A stretch of DNA of 64,000 bases from assembly GCA_946406355.1 (NCBI GenBank), contig CAMJKI010000002.1, positions 16,970 to 80,969 of the forward strand, read 5' to 3'. Each line of letters begins with the position of its first letter. Position 1 is the first letter of the stretch. Of this stretch, positions 63,058 to 64,000 are shown one piece after another. The notes under the pieces are model-generated. The model made no database searches and was not told the DNA's origin. It worked only from the letters and a program-made list of their open reading frames with translations. Both the position numbers and the translations under genes were made by a program. The DNA is from an uncultured Bacteroidales bacterium (GTDB taxonomy: Bacteria; Bacteroidota; Bacteroidia; Bacteroidales; UBA932).

Positions 63058-63094
63058 AATCGACCTATATTATTGTATTTGCGTGAAAAATGGT

Positions 63095-63102
63095 TATATT
63101 TG
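63095..63102 (+). promoter_or_regulatory. -7 box of EF-G-like gene
   Basis: TATATTTG; ATG at 63141. Confidence 0.45.
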
Positions 63103-63140: not shown

Positions 63141-64000
63141 ATGAAAACTTACACTACCAAAAACATCCGCAACGTTGTCTTGATTGGTGCACCCCGCAGC
63201 GGTAAAACCACCCTGTCGGAGGCCATGCTCTTCGAAGGCAAGGTCATCGACCGCCGCGGTTCCGTAGAGGAAAAGAACACCGTGTCCGACAACACTGAGT
63301 TCGAACAGACCAACCAGAAGTCCATCAACGCCACTCCGCTGTATGCCGAGTTCAATGGCTGCAAGATCAACTTCATCGACGCTCCGGGTTCCGACGATTT
63401 CTCCGGCGGCGCCCTTGCCGCCTTTAAGGTGGTTGAGGCTGCCGTTATGGTAATGAACGGCACTGCCGGCATCGAGGTGGGCACTACCCTCTTCGGCCGT
63501 TATGCCGATCAGTACGGCGTTCCCATGATCATTGCCGTGAACCAGCTGGATCACGACAAGGCCAACTGGGACGGCGTGCGTGGCGCCATCAGCGAGGAAT
63601 TCGGCAAGAAGGCTATCATCTGCCAGTTCCCTGTGAACCCCGGCCTGGGCCTGGAAGGCTTCGTGGATGTTATCACCATGAAGTTCTACAACAAGAAGAA
63701 CGAGGAGCAGGACATCCCTGCCGCCTATGCCGATGAGGCCGAAGAACTGCGCGCCGAACTCATGGAGAAGGCCGCCGAAGGTTCCGACGAGCTCATGGAG
63801 AAGTTCTTCGAGACCATGGAGCTGAGCACCGACGAGATCCGTGAGGGTCTGCGTGCCGGCATCCTCAAGGGCGAGACCATCCCGGTGTTCTGCACCGCCG
63901 CCAAGGAAAACATCGGCGTAAAGCGCCTGATGGAATTCATCGTGAACGTGGTTCCTTCTCCGGAAGGCAAGGAAGAGCCCACCGTGGACGGCGGCACCCT
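63141..64000 (+). CDS. Elongation factor G-like paralog (EF-G2 type), truncated by window end
   Basis: MKTYTTKNIRNVVLIGAPRSGKTTLSEAMLFEGKVIDRRGSVEEKNTVSDNTEFEQTNQKSINATPLYAEFNGCKINFIDAPGSDDFSGG...MIIAVNQLDHDKANWDGV; open to 64000. Confidence 0.88.
   Translation, partial: MKTYTTKNIRNVVLIGAPRSGKTTLSEAMLFEGKVIDRRGSVEEKNTVSDNTEFEQTNQKSINATPLYAEFNGCKINFIDAPGSDDFSGGALAAFKVVEAAVMVMNGTAGIEVGTTLFGRYADQYGVPMIIAVNQLDHDKANWDGVRGAISEEFGKKAIICQFPVNPGLGLEGFVDVITMKFYNKKNEEQDIPAAYADEAEELRAELMEKAAEGSDELMEKFFETMELSTDEIREGLRAGILKGETIPVFCTAAKENIGVKRLMEFIVNVVPSPEGKEEPTVDGGT

Follow-up and report, generated by a model that had tools for sequence, protein, structure and literature searches.

By its sequence, the gene interrupted at the downstream edge of the window (the whole 64-kb stretch of DNA that was analysed) is an EF-G2 (the Bacteroidota branch of EFG II) and an ordinary member of an already described family, known from gut Bacteroidales as a spare translation factor. 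We consider it reasonably probable that its product is a second translocase, able to bind GTP and the ribosome although the canonical catalytic set (switch II His, P-loop Asp, and the two hydrophobic-gate Ile) has been lost. If it behaves as Bacteroides thetaiotaomicron (Bt) EF-G2 does, it would translocate slowly without splitting GTP, thereby saving energy when growth is poor. Judging from its genus, its switch would not be Cur (BT4338); a plain Bacteroidota-type promoter would serve it, under some other control or none.

The open reading frame begins with an ATG at 63141, runs on the forward strand to 63998 (286 amino acids), and is still open where the window stops, which is also where contig G000:C2 ends; the gene is therefore cut by the assembly, and its visible part consists of the complete G domain and only the start of domain II. 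A Pfam GTP_EFTU match over residues 7-273 (E 8.5e-36) means that the resemblance is not due to chance. The best NCBIfam match is NF058620 (EFG2_Bacteroid), whose curated cut-off of 1000 bits applies to the whole protein and whose 717 positions are spanned by the window fragment over only 286. At the edge of another contig of the same assembly (C26:2-430) lies a 142-residue C-terminal piece with EFG_IV and EFG_C domains, which scores 226 bits over NF058620 positions 578-717 and is identical in 141 of 142 residues to the C-terminus of a full-length congener, L046. The window gene most likely ends in this piece, with about 284 codons between the two parts absent from the assembly. L046 itself, 89.5% identical to the window gene over the G domain, scores 1015 bits and thus passes the cut-off; its AlphaFold model (mean pLDDT 88) superimposes on 8dmf with a TM score of 0.92. 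The best PDB match is 7uvp/8dmf, the latter described as ribosome-bound Bt EF-G2. The initial annotation's call of a Bacteroides-type EF-G2 is thus borne out by the best family match and the best solved relative. That it represents another Bacteroidales lineage is true as well, though unremarkable, as 40 of the 61 genomes searched contain a family member above the cut-off.

Features of the EF-G2 gene and its upstream region (window coordinates)
Feature	Position	Strand	Observation
Promoter core, Bacteroidota type, TTG-N19-TATATTTG	63073..63102	+	From alignment; -7 element aligned in 10 relatives
5′ part of fusA2-type gene (EF-G2), residues 1-286	63141..64000	+	NF058620, 339 bits over 1-281; contig stops at window base 64000
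G1/P-loop GAPRSGKTT, residues 16-24	63186..63212	+	GKT kept; Asp and Ile of AHIDAGKTT lost
Ser61, in place of the Mg-coordinating Thr of RGITI (switch I)	63321..63323	+	Ser in 47/48 relatives, Thr in 1/48
G3 DAPGSDDF, residues 80-87	63378..63401	+	Ser84 (63390-63392) at the catalytic His; His in 20/20 canonical copies and in no EF-G2
G4 NQLD, residues 134-137	63540..63551	+	Lys replaced by Gln; guanine-reading Asn and Asp kept
G5 region CTAAKEN	63891..63911	+	-

Re-reading the translation confirmed all of the motif changes listed at the outset: GAPRSGKTT, DAPGSDDF, NQLD, and no RGITI. The window gene thus has the His-less G3 and NQLD-type G4 of EFG2_Bacteroid together with the missing RGITI and diverged GTPase domain of EFG II, and does not have the EFG I set (AHIDAGKTT, RGITI, DTPGHVDF, NKMD). 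Comparison within the order separates what is lost from what is kept. None of the 48 order-level EF-G2 sequences retains the switch II His, the P-loop Asp, or either hydrophobic-gate Ile; in the P-loop, this concerns Asp21 and Ile20, both present in 20/20 canonical copies. By contrast, 48/48 retain the GKT and the Asp of DxPG and have Ser or Thr at the switch I position that binds Mg, so that switch I of the window gene is degenerate yet not empty. The G4 motif is nearly as constant among these 48 (Asn in 46, Asp in 46, Gln in 39). All 20 canonical EF-Gs from the same order have AHIDAGKTT, RGITI, DTPGHVDF, and NKMD-type motifs intact. The His at the tip of domain IV is found in every class: 67/67 EF-G2, 34/34 other EFG II, and 22/22 canonical copies. 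The residue pattern of EF-G2 would fit a factor with GTP and ribosome binding but without the usual catalysis.

Loss of the catalytic His had been taken to fit the Bacteroides EF-G2 that translates without GTPase activity during starvation; the family stands, but the His is not diagnostic of that activity, and for this genus a connection with starvation is questionable. No readable EF-G2 locus of a Bacteroidota genome has the His, and neither does any EFG II protein in a sample covering five other phyla. In other branches of the window gene's own phylum, EFG II members show Tyr, Leu, Phe or Thr at this position; in Fusobacteriota, Actinomycetota, Bacillota, and Burkholderiales copies, as in the Thermus and M. 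smegmatis structures, it is Tyr. In a 2011 survey, the lack of RGITI and the weak conservation of the GTPase domain were already named as characteristic of EFG II as a whole (PMC3150367). As far as the compared sequences tell, the His loss is older than Bacteroides EF-G2. Ribosome-dependent GTPase activity and synthesis of poly(Phe) have been reported for Thermus EF-G-2, whereas M. smegmatis EF-G2 is reported to bind nucleotide but to lack such GTPase activity (PMC3150367, PMC3832671); as both have Tyr and yet differ in outcome, what decides cannot be the residue in G3. The H92A mutant of E. coli EF-G is strongly deficient in GTP hydrolysis, with multi-turnover translocation still seen (PMC12775393). 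Since the His is missing in all EFG II sampled while GTPase outcomes differ, its loss marks an old subfamily rather than GTP-free translation, and reading the latter from the former is a weak argument. A GTP-free mechanism for the window EF-G2 is plausible by analogy, on the strength of its kinship with Bt EF-G2, for which GTP-independent translation is stated in PMC10294740.

The Thermus protein is the model for the strongest alternative, in which the window gene encodes a slow, GTP-hydrolysing second EF-G that draws its catalysis from another residue or from the ribosome and acts on special mRNAs or under special conditions. This reading gains from reports of GTP hydrolysis on the ribosome and of poly(Phe) synthesis by a factor that has Tyr in place of the same His. 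We nevertheless regard it as unlikely: a cited title (in PMC10294740 and PMC12775393) describes Bt EF-G2, the nearest relative to have been tested, as devoid of GTPase activity, and Thermus EF-G-2 apparently does not have a domain IV insert that is present in all Bacteroidota EF-G2 examined.

This insert lengthens the segment from GGAGQFGEV to the WGGKL strand of domain IV, which measures 44-69 residues in 120/120 full-length Bacteroidota EF-G2 and 23-27 in 20/20 canonical copies. The window gene is broken before this point, and its relatives L090, L046, and L043 have the insert, predicted to form short beta strands in the L046 model. Other EFG II sequences from the same GTDB phylum are divided: some have a form of 44-46 residues, others, in genomes from outside the class, are at 24 and lack the insert. 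When the tree is computed with the insert columns removed, the 86 sequences that bear the insert all group together (support 1.0), and within this clade the 49 with the longer form make up a clade of their own (0.84); the split between EFG II and canonical EF-G receives a support of only 0.52. On this tree, the insert appears as a single gain that sets Bacteroidota EF-G2 apart. The abstract of Han et al. 2023 reportedly assigns the loss of GTPase activity to a 26-residue region unique to EF-G2, and we do not claim as proven that the insert causes this loss. With the His missing from every EFG II protein sampled, tested members that differ in GTPase activity, and an insert of single origin, these proteins make up a natural set for finding what stops GTP hydrolysis.

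A different main role, in ribosome protection, recycling or storage, with GTP and the A site bound but no productive translocation, is suggested by the PDB's labelling of the Bt EF-G2 sequence as TetQ and by the M. smegmatis protein, with its nucleotide binding and reported lack of ribosome-dependent GTPase. We think such a role improbable, as NF012154, the family of genuine Tet(Q), gives only 72 bits on the fragment (cut-off 1425) compared with 339 for EFG2_Bacteroid, the domain IV tip that translocation needs is retained, and Bt EF-G2 is reported in PMC10294740 to support translation. A TetQ-type resistance protein was rejected on the same scores, and Tet(Q) is absent among the matches of full-length L046 at 1e-30. 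The chain in 7uvp/8dmf is named Tetracycline resistance protein TetQ even though 8dmf is described as Bt EF-G2, a label that could mislead the annotation of resistance genes.

Neither canonical EF-G nor rpsL was found in the window's own assembly (88% complete); because both are missing, the str operon probably went unassembled. Among 12 congeners of at least 90% completeness, all have the canonical gene and 11 have EF-G2 too. Several order-mates have the two genes a few kilobases apart in opposite directions (G042:C5, G043:C30, G049:C46, G059:C3, G057:C118), and three near-complete Bacteroidales genomes (G032, G040, G053) have canonical EF-G and no EF-G2 match. A scan of viral sequences gave one EF-G2-like copy, on a contig taken as bacterial, and a few canonical EF-G or other GTPase genes; a 104-kb IMG/VR contig (L172) encodes an EF-G of canonical type (AHIDAGKTT, DTPGHIDF).

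The window gene and its relatives are under purifying selection, with dN/dS of about 0.08-0.15 (dN 0.046 and dS 0.54 against L090; dN 0.073 and dS 0.55 against L046), and a pseudogene reading was dropped on this basis. Horizontal gain was dropped as well, the G-domain tree placing the gene inside its own genus. In the closest relative (L090:3001-6858, 93% identical), the frame is shifted near the C-terminus and runs on to 1286 codons, which is probably a metagenome assembly error; an apparent frameshift in L061 falls in a sequence that contains a run of N. A decaying duplicate or an assembly artefact, to which the split over two contigs and the missing canonical EF-G might point, is highly improbable given the long open frames in congeners, a dN/dS of about 0.1, vertical placement within the genus, and the absence of rpsL from the same assembly.

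In Bacteroides, BT4338 (Cur) acts by way of a palindromic site to turn on fusA2 when carbon is limiting (PMC6989115). No Cur site within three mismatches was found in the whole 64-kb window, and upstream of EF-G2 such a site occurs in 0/27 congeners versus 9/20 order-mates, with 1/19 for canonical fusA; we rely on these counts instead of the p-values, which come from simple base shuffles. Cur is a CRP-family protein. A full-length match to the CRP-type HTH was found in 0/37 genomes of the genus (G000-G036, two above the cut-off being partial) versus 22/24 order-mates, and cNMP-binding domains in 3/37 versus 23/24, with the caveat that domain profiles may overlook a very diverged Cur and that several of the genus genomes are incomplete, the near-complete ones being in agreement. 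With neither a CRP-type regulator nor a Cur site upstream of EF-G2, the known Bacteroides starvation switch probably does not apply in this genus. What is conserved upstream of EF-G2 in the relatives is a promoter core, TTG-N19-TAnnTTTG, which we take to be of Bacteroidota type from the -33/-7 consensus. A genus in which CRP-type regulators are not detected and EF-G2 has no upstream Cur site seems to be the new element here, and this apparent loss of Cur raises the question of whether, beyond Bacteroides, translation that saves energy has any tie to starvation.

A wider reading can be put forward tentatively, with the odds somewhat against it: a small-genome Bacteroidales genus may have kept EF-G2 while losing Cur and its site, leaving a GTP-hydrolysis-free translocase outside the starvation switch, possibly in use during everyday growth, with catalytic loss and insert acquired at separate steps. 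If true, the loss of catalytic residues (throughout EFG II) and the insert (in Bacteroidota only) would be separable in natural proteins as causes of GTPase loss.

Among known systems, Bt EF-G2 (BT2167, fusA2; 8dmf/7uvp) shares with the window gene the change of His to Ser in G3 (DCPGSDDF in Bt), the NQLD in G4, and a degenerate switch I with Ser. It is also alike in its domain IV tip and in an insert segment of 53 residues, as found in the window gene's closest relatives, and is about 51% identical to L046. The two differ in the P-loop, where the window gene has Arg and Bt EF-G2 has Gly, and in that the Bacteroides gene is under Cur, whereas neither Cur site nor CRP-type regulator was found in the window genus. 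Thermus EF-G-2 (1WDT) and M. smegmatis EF-G2 (9k0z) likewise have no RGITI, have the catalytic His and P-loop Asp replaced, and keep the switch I Ser/Thr, but the His position is Tyr in both and Ser in the window gene; that Thermus EF-G-2 apparently has no insert is seen in the alignment of its 653 residues to 680 of an insert-less relative. Canonical EF-G (EFG I, TIGR00484) has its domain order, GTP_EFTU domain, and domain IV tip His in common with EF-G2, and differs in its intact catalytic motifs (20/20 order-mates) and lack of an insert. It also sits in the str operon, whereas the window gene lies downstream of genes for RNase HII and an Rce1-like membrane protease.
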